From NCBI GenBank assembly GCA_022616535.1, contig JAKEEM010000030.1, positions 1 through 35,990 on the forward strand: a stretch of DNA of 35,990 nucleotides. The letters run 5' to 3'. Shown here piece after piece: positions 2,303 through 14,087 of the stretch. Position 1 is the stretch's first letter. Each line of letters opens with the position of its first letter. The DNA comes from Chlorobiota bacterium. GTDB lineage: Bacteria; Bacteroidota; Ignavibacteria; Tepidaquicellales; OLB5. A model generated the notes under the pieces. The model searched no databases and was not told the DNA's origin. It saw only the letters and a list, made by a program, of their open reading frames with translations. Position numbers and translations under genes: made by a program.

Positions 2303-3748
2303 TTATTTCAGCAGCATCATTTTTCTGCTTTTGATTAAGCTTCCGTTAACATATAATGAGTAAAAATAAACTCCGCCCGGAAAATTATCTGCCGACCAAT
2401 CAACTTCATATGTCCCTGCGTTTAACTGCTCGTTGACAAGCGCTGCGACTTCTCTTCCAAGAACATCGTAAATTTTTAGACTCGTAAAACTGTTAATTGA
2501 TAATTGAAAATGGATAATTGTGCTTGGGTTAAAGGGATTCGGATAATTTTGTGAAAGAGAAAATTCCTTCGGTATCTCAGAATTAATATTTATTATTCCA
2601 ACAGGATTACCGGTCGGATTGCGTTTGTAATATATCTCTCGGTTCCCGTCACGCAAATCAGTCCAAATCACATGAACAACCGACCCGGATACTGAAACGG
2701 AAGGGTAGTTTGATGCAGCAGAGTTATTCGTTAAACGTGTATCCGTTTCCCAGCTTAAACCGCCATCTGTCGAATGTTTGTAGTATATCTCATAGTTCCC
2801 GTCACGAAAGTCAACCCAAACCACATGAACAACTGAACCGGATACCGAAACGGAAGAAAACCATGAATTATTAGGAGCATTCGTCAAACGTGTATCCGTT
2901 TCCCAGCTTAAACCGCCATCTGTCGAATGTTTGTAGTATATCTCATAGTTCCCGTCACGATTGTCAAACCAAACTACATGCACAACTGAACCAGATACTG
3001 AAATGGAAGGGAGACCTGAAGCAGCAGGGTCATTCGTCAACCGTGCATCTACTCCCCAGCTTATGCCGTCGTCTGTGGACCGTTTGTAATATATCTCGGA
3101 TTGCCCGTGACGAAAATCATACCAAACCACATGAACAACTGAACCGGATACCGAAACGGAAGGCTCGAATGAATTAATGGAGTCATTTGTTAGCCTCGTA
3201 TCTACACTCCAACTTACACCCGCGTCTGTCGAACGTTTGTAGAATACCTCCCAGTCCCCGTCACTAAAATCTTGCCACACAACATGCACAAATGAGCCTG
3301 ATACTGAAACGGAAGAAAATTCTGATGCATCAAAGTTATTCGTTAGCCGTACGTCTGCACCCCAGCTTATGCCTCCGTCTGTTGAGCGTTTGTAGTATAT
3401 CTCGGAGGTCCCGTTTCGAAAGTCATGCCATGCAATATGAACAACTAATCCGGTTACTGAGATTGAAGGGTTACCTGAAGAAGCAGAATTATTAGTCAGT
3501 CGTGTATCTGCACCCCAGCTTATGCCTCCGTCTGTTGAGCGTCTGTAGTATATCTCAAAGTTCCCGTCACGATTGTCAAACCATACAAGATGTACAACCG
3601 AATCTCTTGCCGCTATACACCACGCACTATTAAAAGATGTATAAGATTCAGCAGGGTCGTTGGTTAAGCGTACATCCGGCTGCCACTGCGACTGTGAATC
3701 CGCCGTAAATAACAGGAGCGTAAAGAGCAAGGATAATTTGTTTTTCAT
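2303..3748 (-). CDS. Secreted seven-bladed beta-propeller protein with T9SS C-terminal sorting domain (paralogue of 69-1580)
   Basis: The 481-residue protein has a short signal peptide (MKNKLSLLFTLLLFTADSQSQ) and then directly enters the first half blade, DVRLTNDPAES. Six full ~51-residue repeats follow, each with an Asp-box (STDGGISWG or variants) and a VHVVWxDxRDGNxEIYYK strand pair. A last half repeat could close the propeller onto the N-terminal half blade. From FSLSQNYPNPFNPST to the C-terminus is a type A T9SS sorting domain. Blades five and six share 75 identical bases, a sign of recent duplication or gene conversion. No sialidase active site was recognised; glycan or protein binding at the cell surface is a guess from fold and export. 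It is divergent from the helix-turn-helix gene at 3870. Confidence 0.9.
   Translation of the reverse strand: MKNKLSLLFTLLLFTADSQSQWQPDVRLTNDPAESYTSFNSAWCIAARDSVVHLVWFDNRDGNFEIYYRRSTDGGISWGADTRLTNNSASSGNPSISVTGLVVHIAWHDFRNGTSEIYYKRSTDGGISWGADVRLTNNFDASEFSSVSVSGSFVHVVWQDFSDGDWEVFYKRSTDAGVSWSVDTRLTNDSINSFEPSVSVSGSVVHVVWYDFRHGQSEIYYKRSTDDGISWGVDARLTNDPAASGLPSISVSGSVVHVVWFDNRDGNYEIYYKHSTDGGLSWETDTRLTNAPNNSWFSSVSVSGSVVHVVWVDFRDGNYEIYYKHSTDGGLSWETDTRLTNNSAASNYPSVSVSGSVVHVIWTDLRDGNREIYYKRNPTGNPVGIININSEIPKEFSLSQNYPNPFNPSTIIHFQLSINSFTSLKIYDVLGREVAALVNEQLNAGTYEVDWSADNFPGGVYFYSLYVNGSLIKSRKMMLLK
2733..2960 (-). repeat. Two identical 75-bp segments inside the propeller gene
   Basis: Positions 2733-2807 and 2886-2960 are identical and start 153 bases (51 codons, one blade) apart. 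Both encode the stretch from DNFxIYYKHSTDGG-like strand through ETDTRL. Other blades of the gene are clearly less alike in DNA. Confidence 0.85.
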
Positions 3749-3869: not shown

Positions 3870-5636
3870 GTGGCTAAAAATCAAAAACATACTACAATTG
3901 CCTCAATAAACTACCTTAATGAAATATCTGCATTTCCTGCTGAAATTAGAAGTGGTTACCTAAGCAAGCTGTTAAGAAGGGAGAATTCCGAGAGTCAAAA
4001 AAATGTTCGCCTTCTGAGAATAATTTACGGCTACGTAGAACAGGATAAAATTTCTAAGTGGGACTCTGCACAAATTTCCCGGACACTTGGTATAACTGAA
4101 GCAACTCTGTACAAACATAAATCCCGTCTTTTAAAAGGCCTCAGGGAGTTATTTTTTAACTGGAAGGAAGTTGAAAAGGAAATTGAAGAAAAATTCGACA
4201 AAGAAAAAGACTCGATTGAACTGATGCTTGAAAAAGCACGGAAAATGAAAGAGCTTGGTATGCTGCGTGAGGCAAAAATAACTTATGTAATACTGGAAAA
4301 AGAATTAAGACAAATTTCATTTGAAAATCCCGCCGGAAAATATTTGTTATTATCTGAAATATATGAATATATGACTTTTTATTATTACTATAGGAAAAAA
4401 AAGAAAAAAATTCTTCACTATACTTCCAGATTGAATGATATATTCAAAGTTGTTAAAGCACTTAATTTAAACCTTTCAGAGAAGGATGAAGCTTTATTTT
4501 CAATTAGGATATACTTTGGTAGACTTAATTGCAGTATGCTGGAATGGTATAAAAAAGTTAAAAACATAGGGATTTCAACACTTATGAAAAAAACTTACAT
4601 GCTCTGCAAGATATCAACTAATTATTCATACTTACTTAATATTATTTATAAAAAGGCTGGCCTAGAAACAACCTTAGGAAAATTTGATAAGGCAATCAAA
4701 CTATGCTTGGAAGGCAAGTCATTAGCAAAACGATTAAAACAGAAAACTGCATATTATTCGTTTGCTTCATTACTTCATTTCATTAATATTAGAATAAATC
4801 CTGCAAATGTTAAACTTTATGATAAGAACATATTAGTCTATTATCATCAAATAAAAAAAACAATGCCTTTAAACCCATGGACGCTTTATCTTGAAAATTC
4901 AATAATACTTCCTTATTACCCCGAAAAAAGAAAGGAAATTCTGGCTGTGTATCGCGAGCAGATTAACTCTAATATTTTACGTGGAGATTTCTCGGTCGCA
5001 GTATACTGGAAATTTGTACTCAGTTTGCAAATTTATAATAATAATATCTTTTCTTTTTTAAAACATTGTTCATATGGATATCTTGAATTGAGCAAAATTG
5101 ATGAAAACATACTTGATAATATTGAAAGAACTTGTGTCAATACTTTATGTTATCAAAAACAATTAAATGATGAAGCTTTTATATGGGATGTTTATATGCT
5201 TCAGCTCCTGGCTTTGTTTTTCAGCGAAAACAAATTTGATTATGACAGTGCTTTTCTCGTTATTAATAAAATAGCTCATCTTAAAAGATATAAAAAGAAA
5301 GTGTCAAACTTGAACACTTTTGAGCTTTTAAAGCTTGGATTTAAAATGCTCGAACACTCCGATGATGAAAAATACATGCTGAGTAAATATGAGCATAAAT
5401 TTAAAAAATTAATAGATGATTTTAAAAATAACCCTGCTGAATTTGGTCTGATTGATTATGCAATAATCTCATCGCTTGCAAGGAGATTAAAATCCAAAAG
5501 TATAACAAGTCTTGTAATCGACCTGTACAAATGGATTAACAAACACCACCCTGAAATAATTGCTCCGGTACTGCGTGAAATGGAGGAAAGGGAGCTAAAG
5601 GTTTATAAGTTGGTGGAGGAGGAAGAGGCTGCGTAA
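3870..5636 (+). CDS. Helix-turn-helix protein with long alpha-helical, TPR-like tail
   Basis: The 588-residue protein starts with GTG directly after an in-frame TAA, so it cannot start further upstream; the next ATG is near residue 119. Residues about 66-92 (SAQISRTLGITEATLYKHKSRL) resemble the helix-turn-helix of sigma-factor region 4 or LuxR-type regulators. Residues 100-125 are charged and coiled-coil-like. The remaining ~450 residues are lysine-rich and helical with loosely repeating units that could be TPR-like (for example LEKARKMKELGMLREAKITYVILEKEL). No sigma region 2, kinase or receiver domain is visible. It is a probable DNA-binding regulator with a protein-interaction tail. By eye its codon use is more AT-rich than that of the next gene. 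Its position opposite a T9SS propeller gene hints at, but does not prove, control of that family. Confidence 0.75.
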   Translation: MAKNQKHTTIASINYLNEISAFPAEIRSGYLSKLLRRENSESQKNVRLLRIIYGYVEQDKISKWDSAQISRTLGITEATLYKHKSRLLKGLRELFFNWKEVEKEIEEKFDKEKDSIELMLEKARKMKELGMLREAKITYVILEKELRQISFENPAGKYLLLSEIYEYMTFYYYYRKKKKKILHYTSRLNDIFKVVKALNLNLSEKDEALFSIRIYFGRLNCSMLEWYKKVKNIGISTLMKKTYMLCKISTNYSYLLNIIYKKAGLETTLGKFDKAIKLCLEGKSLAKRLKQKTAYYSFASLLHFINIRINPANVKLYDKNILVYYHQIKKTMPLNPWTLYLENSIILPYYPEKRKEILAVYREQINSNILRGDFSVAVYWKFVLSLQIYNNNIFSFLKHCSYGYLELSKIDENILDNIERTCVNTLCYQKQLNDEAFIWDVYMLQLLALFFSENKFDYDSAFLVINKIAHLKRYKKKVSNLNTFELLKLGFKMLEHSDDEKYMLSKYEHKFKKLIDDFKNNPAEFGLIDYAIISSLARRLKSKSITSLVIDLYKWINKHHPEIIAPVLREMEERELKVYKLVEEEEAA

Positions 5637-5872: not shown

Positions 5873-8800
5873 ATGAAAAGGTCCTTTTTACCCAATGCCC
5901 TTCTTCTCACAACTGTAGCTCTGAATTTCTTCTGCATAAATCTTCATTCACAGGATAGTGAGGATTATAAAGAAACCTATAAAAATTATTTCCCCGATTT
6001 CACGATAACCTCACCGGCATTCTACTACCTGCCAGGCGATACTGTTAAAATTAACCTCTACACACCGGGCATAAAAACTACTTCAGTGTTCACAGTAAAA
6101 GTTTATCGAATTTTAAATCCCGAGCAGTTTATAATCAGTCAACCCAACAGAAATACTTTTTCGGTGGTTGGTAAGGATAGCAGCAATCTCTTAAGTCTAC
6201 TCGAAGAAAAAGACACATTTACAAAGAAGATTCATCCTAAAAAGAAAAAAAATACTTTTGATGTAATTAAGCATATTCCTAAACAAAAGGGTGCTTATCT
6301 TGTTAGAATTTACCTTAGAAATAAAGTAGCCACTTGCGGCTTTTTTGTAACAGAGCTTGCTCTAATAACACGGTTTGCCCAAAGTTCGGTTTTAAATTAT
6401 ACTGCAAACAGGATTACAAGCGAGCCGGTCGACAGTGTAAGTCTTAGTCTTTACCTGAATAATCAAAAAATTGGAAATGCATTAACTTCCGGAGCATCTA
6501 ACAACTATTTATTAAGCTCAATAGATAAGGAAACAATATTCAAGCTTGGGAATATCCATCCTCTTATAATTGCGATAAAAAATAATGAAGTAGCTGTTTC
6601 AGACCCTTATTTTTATTTTTACGGAGGCAATCAAACCCGTTTTACTGCTTATATTGTAACAAGCCAGCCTGTTTACAGACCACCCGCTAAGATTGATTTT
6701 AAAATATCGGTCAGAGAGCTTGCTTCAAGCGGTTACACGGTATATGCTAATAAAGACATTATTGTTCATGTTAAAGATTCAAAAAAGAGTTCGATTTACC
6801 GAAAGCTTGCCAATACAGATGAATTCGGAAGCTTTTCAGACAGCATCAATATTGAAGGTGATGCAGCACTTGGCGATTACAAAATAATTGCAGAAATTAT
6901 CGAACAAACCGACAGCACCGATTCCGATAAAATGATTTACCAGAGCTTTGAGCAGGTCTTTGGGGTTGAAGAATACAAAAAACCTGAATACAAAGTGGAA
7001 ATAAAAACCGATAAAGAGCAGTACTCAAATAAAGAAAAAATTGAAATAGAGGTTCAGTCTGATTATTACTTTGGCAGCCCTGTGCAGGATGCGGAAGTAC
7101 ATTATAATATCTTTAAAAAGCCGCTCTACCGCCCCTGGTGGTACTACAGCGAATATAGATGGTTCTATGAATCCTATTATTCAACCCTTGGCAACCAGCC
7201 GAATTATTACAATTCGGTAAACATTTATCAGGGCAATGGCAAGCTTGATGAAAACGGGTATTTTAAAGCATCATATAAGATTAATGAGGATTTTAAAGAG
7301 GAAAGCGGTAATTACTCTTACGAAACCGATTACACTTATATTATTAACGTTTATGTAAAAGACAAGTCGAGACGTAATATACTTTCGACAAAATCAGTTA
7401 ATGTTACGCGATCAGATTATTTTATTAACGCTCAAACCGATAGATACGTCTGCAGGCCGGGTGAGAAAATCGGCTTAACCGTAAGAGCAAGGGATTTTTC
7501 CGATAAGCCGGTAGAAGCCGGTTTTACCGTTTCGATTAATCGTATAAGTTACGAAAAAAAGGTTAAGGTTACAAACTTTATAGGCACTGCTTATGGAAAG
7601 ACCTCCTTGACAGGTGATGCAGCTCTATTTCTTGATACTGAACCTGAGGGATATTATGAAATTGAAGTAACATCATTTGACTCAAAAAATACTAAGATAA
7701 CCGACAAAAAGGGAACATATGTATTTTCAGGGGACTTCAGCTGGTGGAACAGGCAAGCGGGAACAATTGAAATTATCCCGGAAAAAGATTCGTATAAACC
7801 AGGCGAAACTGCAAGAATTTTCACTGCCTTGGCGCATAATGACGTAAGTATACTAATAACGAATTATAACAAGAACATTGTATCATACCGTGTGGAAAAA
7901 GTAAGCGGCAATACTGCATTTATTGAGATTCCTGTTACTGAAAACTCAGCGCCAAATTTTTATTTCAATATATCCTATGTTAAAAACGGGAACTACTATT
8001 CCAATTCCCGCTCAATTGCAGTTATACCCGTAGTAAAATTTTTAAATGTTGAGCTTTCATCCGATAAGCCGGTTTATAAGCCGCGTGATGAGGGAACCAT
8101 CAGCATCACGGTTAGGGATAAATTCGGCAATCCGGTAAAAAACTCTGAGGTTACTCTAGGGATGATTGATGAGAGTATTTATGCAATAAAGCCGGAAAAC
8201 ATTCCCGATATACGCTCCGCATTTTATTCTCCGGCAGGAGATAATACAGCTGTAACATTTAACCACAATAATGTGTACAGATACAACATCGGCTCAACAT
8301 ATCTGAGTTTGTTTGAAATGTATGATTTTAAAACTTTCCCTACGGAAAAGCTCTGCAAAGTCACAGGAAAGCTTTATAATTCAAGAGGAGCACCTATTGA
8401 ATATGGGATTATTTTAGTAAATGACGCATACTATGCATCCGTATCAAATAAAAACGGTGAGTTTGAATTCATAATACCAGAAGGAAACTACAAGATTTCA
8501 GTTGTGTTTGGGTGGGAACAAATCGAAGGACATATCGATATTAAAACAGAACGGTATAAGTCAAACTTTATTGAGATAAAATGCGGGTTAAGCGGAATAT
8601 TTTCTGCAATTTATAACTATGAAGATATAGAAGTTAAGGATAGAGATTTTGTCAATATTAAACCTGTAACTGATACCATTGAGGTCGTTGAAAAAAGAAG
8701 TGTACTCTCCCCTGACCAGTCCGGGAAAATTATAGGAACTGAATTCCTGGTCATTGATAACACAGGCATCCGCGGAATTGAAAATATTACAGCAAAAACC

Positions 8801-11095
8801 AGCGGAATTATTACAGATGAGGAAGGTAATATCATAAACATTCGTGGGGGCAGAACATATGAAACGGCTATTGAAGAGAGAACTGAAAAAGAAGATTATA
8901 TTGAAGCAATACCCCGAACCGATTTCCGTGATGCAATTTTGTGGCTGCCGGCAGTTTATACGGATGAAAATGGAAATGCGCAGGTTAAGGTCAAATTCCC
9001 TGATAATCTCACAACCTGGCGAGTTACTGCCAGGGTTATAACAAAAAATACCGAGGTAGGACAGAACACCTATTCAGTAATTGAACGTAAGGATTTAATA
9101 ATCCGGGTAGAGGTTCCGAGATTCTTCCAGCAAAATGATGAGGTTACAGTATCAACCATTATTCACAACTACTTAAACGAGGATAAAAAAACCAAAGTCT
9201 CGCTTAGACTCGATAATCTAATGCTTGCGGCATCATCTCCCTACGAGAAGGAGATACTTCTTGGAAAAAACGAAGAAAGAAGAATCGACTGGAAAGTTAA
9301 GGTATTAAATCCAGTAGGTGTAGGTAATGTTTATGCATCAGCTCTCACAAATGAAGAATCAGATGCTATGGAGCAGTTCATTCCTATTCAGCCATTCGGC
9401 TTAAAGGTTAATAAATACAATGCATATGATTTCTCCAAAACATCAGGGATTATCACCAAAACAATCGAAATCCCCGAACACACGGATACAAGAAGCGCAA
9501 GCTTAAAGCTTGGTGTTTCACCGTCTCTAGCATCAAGTCTTCTTGGAAGTCTTGAGTACTTAATCGGCTATCCTTACGGCTGTATTGAGCAAACAATGAG
9601 CCGGTTTATGCCTACAGTTATCGCTGCAAATACACTTAAAGAAATTAACGCTCCCGAGGACCCGTATTTTAAACAGCAGATTCCTAAAATGGTTAAAAAC
9701 GGCTTCCAAAAAATCTTTTCAATGCAGAAAAACGACGGCGGCTGGGGCTGGTGGACCAATGACGGCTCAGACCCGTATATGAGCGCTTATGTATTATACA
9801 GTCTGACACTTGCTAAAGAAAACGGTTATAATTTTAAGGATTATAATATCAAAGAAAAAGATTACAAAAATGCGGTGAATTTCGCTGTAAAATCACTTAA
9901 GAATAAAAAACTTGACTTAGCAACACGAGCGTTCATTACCTATGTTATATCAAATATCTCAGTAAGCGATACTGCGTTGGCACTGGTAGCAGCCAAACAA
10001 TTTAAAAAATTCGAAAGGAAGGAAACTTCTTCACTTGTAAAAGCGTGGCTTTCGATGGCGGCTGGTAAACTCGGCAGAGAGGAAACACAAAGAAAGTACA
10101 TATCCGATGTTATGCGTGAAGTTAATTTTACCGATGAGGGGGGCGCATACTGGGGCGGGAAAATCAAGCGCTACAAATGGCAGGATGATTACATTATTAC
10201 TACATCCATGGTAATCAAGGGCCTGCTGGCCGATGCCCAGAGTGCATCAGAAAACAAGGACTACATTGAAAAGGCGGTTAATTGGTTGTTGACTCAGAAA
10301 CGGGGAAACTCCTGGGGCAATACTTTACAGAATGCGTTTATTGTTTATTGCTTGAGCGATTATATCAAAAAATATAATGAGCTCGAACCGGATTATACGC
10401 TTAAAATCTACGTTAACAATAAGCCTGCTGCTGAAAAGCATATAACAAAAGATGATGTATTCAGAAAAGAAGAACGCTTTTTCGTAACCGGGGATATGCT
10501 GAAATCAGGTGAAAATAAAATTACAATTGAAAAATCCGGTGCCGGCAAGACTTACCTAACAACGGCTTTAACTTACTATGAATATGACACCAGAAAAACC
10601 ATCGAAGAAACGGTAAATGGTTTCGATATTGAGCGTAAGTATTTCACACTCAAAAAAGTTTACAGCAAAAAGAAGGGAATCTATACTTACAAAAAAAGAG
10701 AATATAAAGGTGTCATAAAATCAGGAGAGGAGCTTCTTGTAAAGATTAAGGTTTACCCGAATGAAAACTCTGGCGCATATTTTATGCTTGAGGAGCCCAT
10801 ACCCGCCGGATGCGAATATATCAAAGAGGACTGGGCATATGCTATTGATGGTGAAAACAGCTACAACGGAAAATCAACCGGCTTATGGAATTGGTGGTAT
10901 GCAGATAAGGAGCTACGTGATAACAGGATTGTTTTCTTTGCGCCATATCTTGGCTCTGGTGAATATGAGTTTTCATATCTTTTAAGGGCTCAGATTCCCG
11001 GGATTTATAACATAATGCCCTCCAGGGGGATGCTTATGTATTATCCGGAGGTAAACGGCTCAAGTGATAATTCAACTTTAAGAATCGAGGAATGA
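5873..11095 (+). CDS. Giant alpha-2-macroglobulin family protein with thioester, carboxypeptidase-regulatory-like domain and plug-like segment
   Basis: The 1740-residue protein has a signal peptide (residues 1 to about 26). An MG2 domain begins near residue 257 (FTAYIVTSQPVYRPP). Residues about 830-905 form a carboxypeptidase-regulatory-like beta-sandwich (VTGKLYNSRGAPIEYG). Residues about 945-1000 resemble a TonB-receptor plug, with GIRGIENITAKTSGI followed by IRGGRTYE at 990-997. The A2M domain follows near 1020 (DAILWLPAVYTDENGNAQ). The thioester motif GCIEQ has Cys1237 and Gln1240, and NDGGWGWW near 1287 marks the alpha/alpha-toroid thioester domain. Bacterial macroglobulins are thought to trap proteases in the periplasm or at the surface. 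No lipobox is seen, unlike many relatives, and no PbpC-type penicillin-binding protein is adjacent. The stop at 11095 is followed by a non-coding stretch and a tRNA, so it appears monocistronic. Confidence 0.93.
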   Translation: MKRSFLPNALLLTTVALNFFCINLHSQDSEDYKETYKNYFPDFTITSPAFYYLPGDTVKINLYTPGIKTTSVFTVKVYRILNPEQFIISQPNRNTFSVVGKDSSNLLSLLEEKDTFTKKIHPKKKKNTFDVIKHIPKQKGAYLVRIYLRNKVATCGFFVTELALITRFAQSSVLNYTANRITSEPVDSVSLSLYLNNQKIGNALTSGASNNYLLSSIDKETIFKLGNIHPLIIAIKNNEVAVSDPYFYFYGGNQTRFTAYIVTSQPVYRPPAKIDFKISVRELASSGYTVYANKDIIVHVKDSKKSSIYRKLANTDEFGSFSDSINIEGDAALGDYKIIAEIIEQTDSTDSDKMIYQSFEQVFGVEEYKKPEYKVEIKTDKEQYSNKEKIEIEVQSDYYFGSPVQDAEVHYNIFKKPLYRPWWYYSEYRWFYESYYSTLGNQPNYYNSVNIYQGNGKLDENGYFKASYKINEDFKEESGNYSYETDYTYIINVYVKDKSRRNILSTKSVNVTRSDYFINAQTDRYVCRPGEKIGLTVRARDFSDKPVEAGFTVSINRISYEKKVKVTNFIGTAYGKTSLTGDAALFLDTEPEGYYEIEVTSFDSKNTKITDKKGTYVFSGDFSWWNRQAGTIEIIPEKDSYKPGETARIFTALAHNDVSILITNYNKNIVSYRVEKVSGNTAFIEIPVTENSAPNFYFNISYVKNGNYYSNSRSIAVIPVVKFLNVELSSDKPVYKPRDEGTISITVRDKFGNPVKNSEVTLGMIDESIYAIKPENIPDIRSAFYSPAGDNTAVTFNHNNVYRYNIGSTYLSLFEMYDFKTFPTEKLCKVTGKLYNSRGAPIEYGIILVNDAYYASVSNKNGEFEFIIPEGNYKISVVFGWEQIEGHIDIKTERYKSNFIEIKCGLSGIFSAIYNYEDIEVKDRDFVNIKPVTDTIEVVEKRSVLSPDQSGKIIGTEFLVIDNTGIRGIENITAKTSGIITDEEGNIINIRGGRTYETAIEERTEKEDYIEAIPRTDFRDAILWLPAVYTDENGNAQVKVKFPDNLTTWRVTARVITKNTEVGQNTYSVIERKDLIIRVEVPRFFQQNDEVTVSTIIHNYLNEDKKTKVSLRLDNLMLAASSPYEKEILLGKNEERRIDWKVKVLNPVGVGNVYASALTNEESDAMEQFIPIQPFGLKVNKYNAYDFSKTSGIITKTIEIPEHTDTRSASLKLGVSPSLASSLLGSLEYLIGYPYGCIEQTMSRFMPTVIAANTLKEINAPEDPYFKQQIPKMVKNGFQKIFSMQKNDGGWGWWTNDGSDPYMSAYVLYSLTLAKENGYNFKDYNIKEKDYKNAVNFAVKSLKNKKLDLATRAFITYVISNISVSDTALALVAAKQFKKFERKETSSLVKAWLSMAAGKLGREETQRKYISDVMREVNFTDEGGAYWGGKIKRYKWQDDYIITTSMVIKGLLADAQSASENKDYIEKAVNWLLTQKRGNSWGNTLQNAFIVYCLSDYIKKYNELEPDYTLKIYVNNKPAAEKHITKDDVFRKEERFFVTGDMLKSGENKITIEKSGAGKTYLTTALTYYEYDTRKTIEETVNGFDIERKYFTLKKVYSKKKGIYTYKKREYKGVIKSGEELLVKIKVYPNENSGAYFMLEEPIPAGCEYIKEDWAYAIDGENSYNGKSTGLWNWWYADKELRDNRIVFFAPYLGSGEYEFSYLLRAQIPGIYNIMPSRGMLMYYPEVNGSSDNSTLRIEE

Positions 11096-11558: not shown

Positions 11559-14087
11559 ATGACGGATATATCTACTCCCAAATTAATAGTTTCATATTTT
11601 GTCAGATTTCTCGGAATCTTCCTCGTCATATTCACTCTTATGGCTGCATATCTTGGTTTCAGCTCTGTTATCAACATTAACAGGGAAGGAACAACAGGAA
11701 TGAGAATTACATCAGCCGAAGACCCTATTTACCTGATTATTTCGAATATAACCGAAGACTATCCCGCGTATAATTCAGGATTAATGAATGGAGATACAAT
11801 AATTAAAATAAACGGTATTCCGGTAAGTGATAAGGAAGCAATTAAAAGGGAAATTGCTAAAAAAGATATTGGAAGCAGAGCTGTTTACACCATTAAGCGC
11901 GGTGATTTTATAAAAGATTATCCAATGCAGTATGTCTCATTAGCACAGCTTGAAAAATTAATTGTCTTCTTATTCAGAACTATCCCAGTCACACTGCTTT
12001 TTGCTTACTTGATTGTGGGATTATGGGGAATATTTAAAAGTCCATATGCTAACGAAACAATTTTAATTGCAATGTTTTGTTTTTGCTTCGGCTCATTTAT
12101 GTATGCGACAGTTCAAACGGGAACCGACCCGGAAAACTTCGTCAGGAAATATCTCTATTTCGATTCACTTCGCGAGTTTGTCTCCTACATAATGTGGCTC
12201 GGCTCGAGCTTCTGGATGCTGCTGTTTGCGGTTTTCCCGAAAAAAATAAGGTTTTATGAGAACCACAAGATAATATCATTACTGTTTATATTTTTGCTTC
12301 CAATCATTGTAATAATGATGTCGCTTATGAGTGTGGATAACAATACCCTAAACATTTTAGTAATAACGCTTATGTTTATCAATATGTCAGTAGGCATTAT
12401 ACTGCTGACCAGAAATTCAAGAATTGCGACAACTGCTTTGGAAAAAAGACAAATCCGCCTGATGCTCTTCGGGATAAAGTACGGAGCAATTTCAATTGGC
12501 ATCGGCTGGCTGATTGTGTTATTTACACAGTTTATTTTCTCCGAACAAATAAGCGATAATGTTGTTATAATAAGCTTTATAATATTTTTAATTTGCGAAA
12601 TCGGCGGCCTAATAATTCCTTTCACATTCCTCAATTCATTTTTCCAAAACAAGCTTCTTGAAACCGAAAGTGCGCTTAAAAGACGGGTCAGGTATGTGGG
12701 GGTTACAATCGGGCTACTAGGAGTATATTTGTTTGCGATTTTCCTGCTTGGCAGACTTTCCATAAGCATCTTTGAAATTAAAGACCCGACGGTCATAATA
12801 GTAATGGTGCTTCTGCTTTCGCTTACATTTACACCTATAAATAAACGGTTGTTGAAATGGATTGACGAAACTTTTTACCCTGAAAAAACCAAATACGCGA
12901 ATTCCTTCAAGGAATTTATGCACAGAATTTCCGGACAGATTGAATCAGGGGAATTGCTCAGTGAGCTAAGCAGATGGGTTCAGAAAACAACGGGAATTGT
13001 TCCCGTTATCCCATTTGCATTAGGAAATGAGCTCGCTCTGCAGATCCCCTTCAGGCATGATGAATCGGACAGCGTTATTCATAGGATAAGAAGCGGCAGT
13101 AAATTTTTCTGGGACGAAATCTCCGAGCGTTCAAGAATCACCGTTGATGAAAACGAAATCGAATGGGTGCGTGAAAACGAAATTTCTGTTACAATTCCGA
13201 TGATTTCACAGGGTGAGCTGGTTGGCGTGCTGAATCTGGGCAAAAAGCTGAACGATGAGGATTTCACCGCCGAGGATTTGGATATTCTCTCACAGGCATC
13301 GAATCAGGCGGCTTTAGCCCTGCAAAACCTGAAGCTGCAGTCAGCTTATATTGAAAAAAAACGTATGGATAAAGAGCTTGAAATGGCTCGAAATATTCAG
13401 AGAAGACTGATGCCGCAGGAAATACCTGTTGTAAGGGGACTTGAAATTTACGGCGAATCACGTCCCTGCAAAGAAGTTGCAGGAGATTATTACGATATTA
13501 TAAATACCGAAGACGGCTATACCATAATGGTTATAGCGGACGTTAGCGGCAAAGGGGCGGGTGCGGCTATGATTATGGCTAATCTTCAGGCATCGATTAG
13601 AGTGGGAATTGAAATAAGCGAAGACTTTACCGATTTCATTTACAGAATCAACAACCATATTTACAGAAGCACATCGCCTTCTGAGTTCATTACGTTTTTT
13701 ATGGGAATCTGGGAGCCGAAATCAAAAACTCTGCACTACATTAATGCGGGACATAACCCCGCAATCTTAATCAACAGGGAAAACAATATTAAAGCACTAA
13801 GTGCAACGGGATTAATTCTCGGCATCCTGCCTGACCAAAAATACGAAAGAGCTTCGGTAATGATTGAAGACGGCTCCCTGCTTGCAATCTTTACGGACGG
13901 TCTTGAGGAAGCTTTGAACCGCAGAAACGAACTTTTCTCACAGGAAAGAATTATCCAATGCCTGATGAGCAGCAAGCATCTAGGTCCAAGAGAAATAATC
14001 AAAAGTGTTAATACCAGGGTTATTGAGTTTTGCGAGGGCAATCCATTGCATGACGATTTAACTATGATTGTGGCAAAGTCAGTTTAA
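11559..14087 (+). CDS. PDZ / multi-pass membrane / GAF / PP2C-type serine phosphatase (RsbU/SpoIIE family)
   Basis: The 842-residue sensor phosphatase has a first membrane helix at about 13-33 and an extracytoplasmic PDZ domain at about 45-127 (GLMNGDTIIKINGIPVS). A block of about seven hydrophobic helices lies between 132 and 420. A GAF-like domain follows at about 450-590 (VTIPMISQGELVGVLNLGKK) and a C-terminal PP2C/SpoIIE domain at about 600-842. Metal-binding acidic residues are visible in GDYYD, IADVSGKG (Asp661), FTDGLEEA and HDDLTM. The family dephosphorylates anti-anti-sigma (STAS) proteins in partner-switching pathways; no RsbV- or RsbW-like partner is in the window. The ATG at 11559 directly precedes the first helix. 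The stop overlaps the convergent DUF971 gene by four bases. Confidence 0.92.
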   Translation: MTDISTPKLIVSYFVRFLGIFLVIFTLMAAYLGFSSVININREGTTGMRITSAEDPIYLIISNITEDYPAYNSGLMNGDTIIKINGIPVSDKEAIKREIAKKDIGSRAVYTIKRGDFIKDYPMQYVSLAQLEKLIVFLFRTIPVTLLFAYLIVGLWGIFKSPYANETILIAMFCFCFGSFMYATVQTGTDPENFVRKYLYFDSLREFVSYIMWLGSSFWMLLFAVFPKKIRFYENHKIISLLFIFLLPIIVIMMSLMSVDNNTLNILVITLMFINMSVGIILLTRNSRIATTALEKRQIRLMLFGIKYGAISIGIGWLIVLFTQFIFSEQISDNVVIISFIIFLICEIGGLIIPFTFLNSFFQNKLLETESALKRRVRYVGVTIGLLGVYLFAIFLLGRLSISIFEIKDPTVIIVMVLLLSLTFTPINKRLLKWIDETFYPEKTKYANSFKEFMHRISGQIESGELLSELSRWVQKTTGIVPVIPFALGNELALQIPFRHDESDSVIHRIRSGSKFFWDEISERSRITVDENEIEWVRENEISVTIPMISQGELVGVLNLGKKLNDEDFTAEDLDILSQASNQAALALQNLKLQSAYIEKKRMDKELEMARNIQRRLMPQEIPVVRGLEIYGESRPCKEVAGDYYDIINTEDGYTIMVIADVSGKGAGAAMIMANLQASIRVGIEISEDFTDFIYRINNHIYRSTSPSEFITFFMGIWEPKSKTLHYINAGHNPAILINRENNIKALSATGLILGILPDQKYERASVMIEDGSLLAIFTDGLEEALNRRNELFSQERIIQCLMSSKHLGPREIIKSVNTRVIEFCEGNPLHDDLTMIVAKSV

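Follow-up and report, generated by a model that had tools for sequence, protein, structure and literature searches.

A fragment of a TonB-dependent receptor plug at the bait site of a Bacteroidota alpha-2-macroglobulin

What bacterial alpha-2-macroglobulins (A2Ms) guard against is an unsettled question. In a 35,990-nucleotide stretch of a Chlorobiota genome (contig JAKEEM010000030.1; hereafter the window), a gene for such a protease trap encodes, within the chain, modules of the type found at the N-terminus of TonB-dependent outer-membrane receptors. An earlier note on this DNA had read them as a receptor-type handle by which the trap could dock on an outer-membrane transporter. The locus raises the questions of where these modules came from and what they would do inside an A2M.

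The A2M open reading frame (positions 5873–11095, + strand) encodes 1740 residues. Pfam detects (main-domain E-values 1e-14 to 1e-25) MG2, the bait-region domain A2M_BRD (PF07703; residues 632–771, positions 7766–8185, +), the A2M domain (residues 1022–1111), TED_complement and bMG10, in the order of type I bacterial A2Ms. The thioester motif GCIEQ (CxEQ) occurs in the TED at residues 1236–1240 (9578–9592, +), and the top Foldseek matches for the protein model were C3, C5, A2M and ECAM. The protein is a secreted type I (thioester) A2M and, as its N-terminal segment resembles a signal peptide and has no typical lipobox, probably a periplasmic one.

Ahead of the A2M domain lies a CarboxypepD_reg-like β-sandwich (residues 828–919, positions 8354–8629, +), placed by the earlier note from residue 830 on. 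In a search with the whole protein, PF13715 matched residues 830–895, and PF13620 matched residues 830–878 with an E-value of 1e-6 and 29.5 bits, just below its cut-off of 32.3 bits. The Pfam search that the note had proposed thus recovered the sandwich; the Pfam Plug model, its other target, found no match in the window protein. In the AlphaFold2 model, residues from about 827 to 914 form a β-sandwich with high confidence (pLDDT mostly between 80 and 94), and CarboxypepD_reg models match 37 of 41 related bait segments, with a best E-value of 4.5e-18. Among the genomes of the order, nearly all orthologues of the window A2M carry the sandwich and most lack a plug; a second A2M of the window's own genome (G000:C35) likewise has the sandwich and no plug. 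Because it is found in these plug-less proteins, the sandwich is, by sequence comparison, the A2M family's own, and in the window protein the plug fragment alone was captured; joint capture of the two was ruled out there on the same grounds. The window protein does have the Bacteroidota-type CarboxypepD_reg N-terminal extension seen in TonB-dependent receptors, but here it belongs to the A2M family. The earlier note had taken the two modules as a receptor signature; their order is as it said, and in this protein they were not captured together.

The segment that follows is a genuine piece of receptor. Residues 933–1000 (8669–8872, +) are 67% identical (E-value 7e-21) to the TonB box and plug of a 971-residue receptor encoded in the same genome (G000:C11), which a search of that genome with this region returned alongside A2Ms, the aligned pair being DTIEVVEKRSVLSPDQSGKIIGTEFLVIDNTGIRGIENITAKTSGIITDEEGNIINIRGGRTYETAI in the A2M and EEVLVIAKRNTLSPDQSGKIIGTEFIETTGIRGIENIASKTAGVVQDEDGAHINIRGGRDNETAV in the receptor. 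In the latter, CarboxypepD_reg, the TonB box and the plug follow one another at the start of the reading frame, and the plug scores above the Pfam cut-off. The plug-like stretch was first noticed at about residues 945–1000; it in fact begins near residue 933 and includes a TonB-box-like motif, DTIEVVEKR (residues 934–942, positions 8672–8698, +), which aligns with EEVLVIAKR of the receptor. Against a profile built from 30 such receptors the window fragment scored 78 bits, compared with a maximum of 8.6 bits among 2540 shuffled linkers, and its orthologues in two genomes of a sister genus (G003 and G010) scored 107–112 bits. Pfam Plug itself matches 2 of the 41 members of the relatives' alignment. 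The fragment spans about positions 4–70 of a 123-position plug profile and ends after RGGR..ETAI, which makes it an N-terminal half that lacks the rest of a complete plug. There is no C-terminal β-barrel in the protein, and A2M domains follow directly, as the earlier note had described: receptor-type modules inside an A2M, sandwich before plug, and no barrel. The structure prediction it had called for gave a divided answer, confident for the family sandwich and disordered for the plug part, with pLDDT below 50 in both the window protein and the G010 orthologue, though this disorder may partly reflect a thin alignment over the plug. A search of solved structures with the insert alone returned nothing significant.

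To place the insert within the A2M fold, we aligned a region profile of 487 positions, built from 38 A2Ms, with known structures. The bait-region domain ends in DESIYAI, the first half of MG6, and aligns with MG5/MG6-beta of complement C5 and with ECAM residues 685–912; the stretch DESIYAIK...FF falls on the end of C5 MG6-beta. Downstream, RTDFRDAILW, in the second half of MG6 and the start of the PF00207 A2M domain (residues 1015–1111, positions 8915–9205, +), falls on the C5 alpha-chain half after C5a and on TETVRKYFPETWIWD of human A2M, and the insert lies before TETVRKYFPETW of the human protein. For E. coli A2M, the alignment in the same profile extends as far as residue 912 of the 4rtd chain, and its A2M domain resumes near residue 953. 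Between these anchors, complement proteins have the anaphylatoxin (ANA) domain and A2Ms the bait region, which is disordered in the E. coli protein (PMC4498604). In A2M relatives from Acidobacteria, Spirochaetes, Planctomycetes, KSB1 and others, this site is occupied by just a short segment. Since the anchors flank the ANA/bait site and other phyla are short there, sandwich and plug fragment are one large bait-site insert (about residues 788–1014, positions 8234–8914, +). Cut short, predicted to be disordered and placed between the two MG6 halves, the plug fragment is most likely bait rather than a handle for docking.

Relatives repeat the architecture, a recurrence that the earlier note had named as support for its idea, both in the G003 and G010 orthologues and across Bacteroidota. 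Within the order, whose named members are Ignavibacteria genomes from metagenomes, 41 of 44 genomes match a query of plug plus A2M, and most orthologues retain only the sandwich and a charged linker. In the G003 and G010 proteins, the family's sandwich is followed by a second one of TonB type and by a longer plug fragment reaching IIIDGVVTNNPL; here, joint capture of TonB-type sandwich and plug does fit. In these two proteins (loci L038 and L039), two CarboxypepD_reg-type sandwiches stand in tandem; the second, TonB-type one is only 51% identical between the two species, compared with 88% for the plug fragments. In G034, of another family, IEQSGKIITQQEIENSGIRGITDLVSKTSGVVQDERGGQINV is joined to SGVINVTT, a plug with its middle deleted. 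Other pieces are found in G018 (INIRGGRTNETIVIVDGEVV), G033 (QSGRVVTEKFSAEYGNVLSGVIDV), G043 (SPDQSGRIINSEF) and G017 (NLRGGRTDESEIVNDG), and because the same-genus pairs G018/G033 and G017/G043 keep different pieces, turnover of plug pieces is fast. One genome titled Armatimonadetes SJ842 (G056; loci L046 and L255) has an A2M bait that holds MEMRGGRVAEAAPM; it was placed in the window's class, and its title is probably wrong.

For the phylum as a whole, 247 genomes were drawn, yielding 88 A2M places and 85 bait segments that were scored. CarboxypepD_reg models match 16 of the 85, Pfam Plug 10 (best E-value 4e-15), the SusC model TIGR04056 17 (best 9e-65) and the SusC signature 11. Several Bacteroidia A2Ms of about 2000 residues (L167, L183 and L184) have a sandwich, an LEEVVVTGYG box and a complete SusC-type plug. 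Counted across all loci, 26 of the 186 bait segments outscore every one of 3720 shuffles with one of two plug profiles; in the ADAGV-type A2M subfamily, none of 18 bait segments does so. Three further Bacteroidia baits (L163, L175 and L177) present the receptor order in reverse, with plug pieces such as GKVAGVRIRG and MVIRGVAAPA before the TonB-box motif LEEVVVTGYK, as if these bait regions were collecting scrambled receptor motifs.

How often were plugs captured? A single clade (100/100) unites the A2M scaffolds of the window, G003 and G010. In the protein tree, the G003 and G010 plugs nest among the receptors of their own genus, and a single origin is rejected both for these with the window plug (AU p 0.036) and for all three with that of G034 (AU p 0.023). 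In the DNA tree, the window, G003 and G010 plugs are joined (81/99, not starred), and one origin of all four is not rejected (p 0.38); both trees assign the G034 plug to a different receptor clade (99/99 and 100/99). These trees point to at least two captures in the order, two being well supported and three possible. For the SusC-type A2M plugs of Bacteroidia, one origin is not rejected (p 0.34), and six of them group in a clade (96/87); the SusC type represents yet another donor. Synonymous sites are saturated between A2M and resident receptor plugs (pS 0.74–0.79), which rules out a recent gene conversion between them.

We compared rates of non-synonymous and synonymous change in two species pairs by simple Nei–Gojobori estimates on stretches that are short (60 and 68 codons). 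For the A2M plug fragment, the G003–G010 pair gives an omega of 0.055 (dN 0.056, dS 1.03), compared with 0.048 for MG7/CUB, 0.062 for the TED and C-terminus, 0.087 for the family's sandwich and 0.173 for the second one, of TonB type. Between two Bacteroidia species of one genus, omega is 0.148 for the A2M plug, 0.104 for the A2M domain and 0.31 for the TonB box and linker. Where a plug piece is present, these codon comparisons show it to be held by purifying selection at the protein level, strongly so between G003 and G010.

The gene neighbourhood offers no conserved partner for this A2M. No penicillin-binding protein gene lies beside it in the window; adjacency of pbpC (PBP1C) to a bacterial A2M gene has been reported to be frequent, though not universal (PMC3328433). 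Immediately upstream is a 588-residue, GTG-start reading frame (3870–5636, +) with no Pfam match at 1e-4, and downstream is a gene (11559–14087, +) for a protein with an unusual combination of PDZ, GAF and SpoIIE phosphatase domains. Further upstream, two BNR-repeat proteins (69–1580 and 2303–3748, both −) have type IX secretion tails (Por_Secre_tail). The window's A2M paralogue occurs only in its own genome and in the two genomes of the sister genus (G003:C23 and G010:C171), and the three loci have no neighbour genes in common. This rarity, with the unshared neighbours, suggests horizontal transfer or mobile placement of the paralogue.

To account for the architecture, the donor family, the position, the recurrence and the purifying selection, we favour, with some reserve, an enlarged bait: the family's sandwich plus about 68 captured receptor residues, with the plug fragment serving as bait or part of it. 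The TonB box and N-terminal plug half would have been taken from a resident TonB-dependent receptor, probably by recombination, a route suggested by the abundance of receptors as donors (11–45 plug matches per genome) and by the upstream CarboxypepD_reg that they share with these A2Ms. Without its other half and the barrel, the fragment would be flexible; a protease cutting it would release the trap, the molecule would collapse and the CIEQ thioester would bond the protease. Human A2M remains functional when its bait is replaced by Gly-Gly-Ser, and substrate sequences inserted there decide which protease is trapped (PMC8267569); because the bait is exchangeable in this way, a flexible half-plug at the site is best read as bait. 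We infer both the cutting of the segment as bait and its retention because proteases attacking receptor plugs are caught by it. Some points sit uneasily with this explanation: many orthologues have lost or scrambled their plug pieces, so that no specific sequence is essential to the family, and protein-level constraint this strong is unusual for a merely cleavable bait and could indicate a binding role, with TonB or with a receptor barrel.

Such a role is the core of two rival explanations. In the first, the CarboxypepD_reg domain would be kept, together with the TonB-box-like stretch, to bind the C-terminal domain of TonB, so that the trap would be held at the Ton machinery or mechanically triggered by it. 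The CarboxypepD_reg extension found in Bacteroidetes transporters is reported to be implicated in the interaction with TonB, and PorE has it as well (PMC12204202); in the window protein, this domain and the retained DTIEVVEKR are all that speaks for a binding role, and a TonB-box-like motif occurs in many baits, even where the plug is gone (L134, L155, L159, L161, L163, L177, L181 and L189). However, in receptors the motif comes directly behind the sandwich, and truncated captures would retain it in any case; the TonB box and linker are also the least constrained part (omega 0.31 in Bacteroidia; 63% identity between G003 and G010), whereas the plug core is constrained, and a clear TonB box is missing from most Ignavibacteria orthologues. 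We consider Ton coupling improbable. Docking of the plug fragment on an outer-membrane transporter or barrel, as first suggested, could appeal to the genuine plug homology and to the complete SusC-type plugs of L167, L183 and L184, but it fares worse still: the window protein has only the N-terminal half, predicted to be disordered and sitting in the bait region, and a receptor barrel is already occupied by its own plug. We regard a docking handle as very unlikely.

Another explanation denies the sequence any specific role. If baits tolerate any flexible sequence, the shared CarboxypepD_reg and the supply of receptor genes would make receptor N-termini the likeliest donors, and fragments would erode after insertion, as the differing pieces within genera (G017 and G043, G018 and G033) and the internal deletion in G034 would lead one to expect. 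We consider neutral insertion improbable: the omegas of 0.055 (at dS about 1) and 0.148 are a mark of protein-level selection that already strains it, and in the 85 phylum segments no domain family recurs at the bait site beyond CarboxypepD-like or A2M-type sandwiches and receptor pieces. A misjoin in a metagenome-assembled genome is hardly credible, even for a draft of 77 contigs, given the open frame, the same architecture in G003, G010 and single-contig Bacteroidia genomes (G170 and G220), and the saturated synonymous divergence from the resident receptor.

Returning to the enlarged bait, its conservation and repeated receptor source suggest that the sequence itself matters, as a decoy of a protease target or as a contact for TonB. 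The data suggest a bait built from the cell's own receptors and perhaps imitating them, an arrangement that recurs in Bacteroidota and is preserved by selection. An integrated version, possible but speculative, holds that Bacteroidota A2M baits were repeatedly made from the plug and TonB box of their own receptors, so that proteases of competitors, predators or hosts that attack or enter through these receptors would be covalently trapped. If the bait is a copy of the receptor gate, it would name a class of attacker, proteases acting at TonB-dependent receptors, and make it testable. The findings also describe a natural exchange of bait cassettes, recurrent throughout the phylum and under selection, and they caution that a 'plug' annotation does not always denote a transporter. 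In the open-access literature that we searched, no paper describes an A2M with a TonB plug; the architecture may well be on record in domain databases already, since 10 of the 85 segments match Pfam Plug.

Among known systems, the closest are the type I bacterial A2Ms (E. coli YfhM/ECAM and Salmonella A2M), which share the MG domains, the bait-region domain, the CxEQ motif in the TED, the C-terminal MG domain and a bait between MG halves; the window protein differs in its bait, enlarged by a sandwich and a plug fragment, and in having no visible lipobox and no adjacent penicillin-binding protein gene. Complement C3, C4 and C5 also have an extra domain at the same place between the MG6 halves, as judged by alignment, and its removal by proteolysis activates the molecule; the window insert, a β-sandwich and plug fragment, is unrelated to this ANA domain. 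TonB-dependent receptors of the Ignavibacteria RGGR type (G000:C11) and of the SusC/RagA type (TIGR04056) share the TonB box, the plug sequence and the preceding CarboxypepD_reg; unlike them, the window A2M has no β-barrel and embeds these elements in a protease trap, with the plug incomplete in the window protein and its Ignavibacteria relatives. PorE and other Bacteroidetes proteins that have borrowed a CarboxypepD_reg domain (PMC12204202) similarly place a receptor-type N-terminal domain in another envelope protein, but have neither plug nor A2M. Lastly, the engineered 'tabula rasa' human A2M (PMC8267569) shows that the bait can be exchanged like a cassette and that its sequence determines the protease caught; there the exchange was made in the laboratory, whereas here it is natural.
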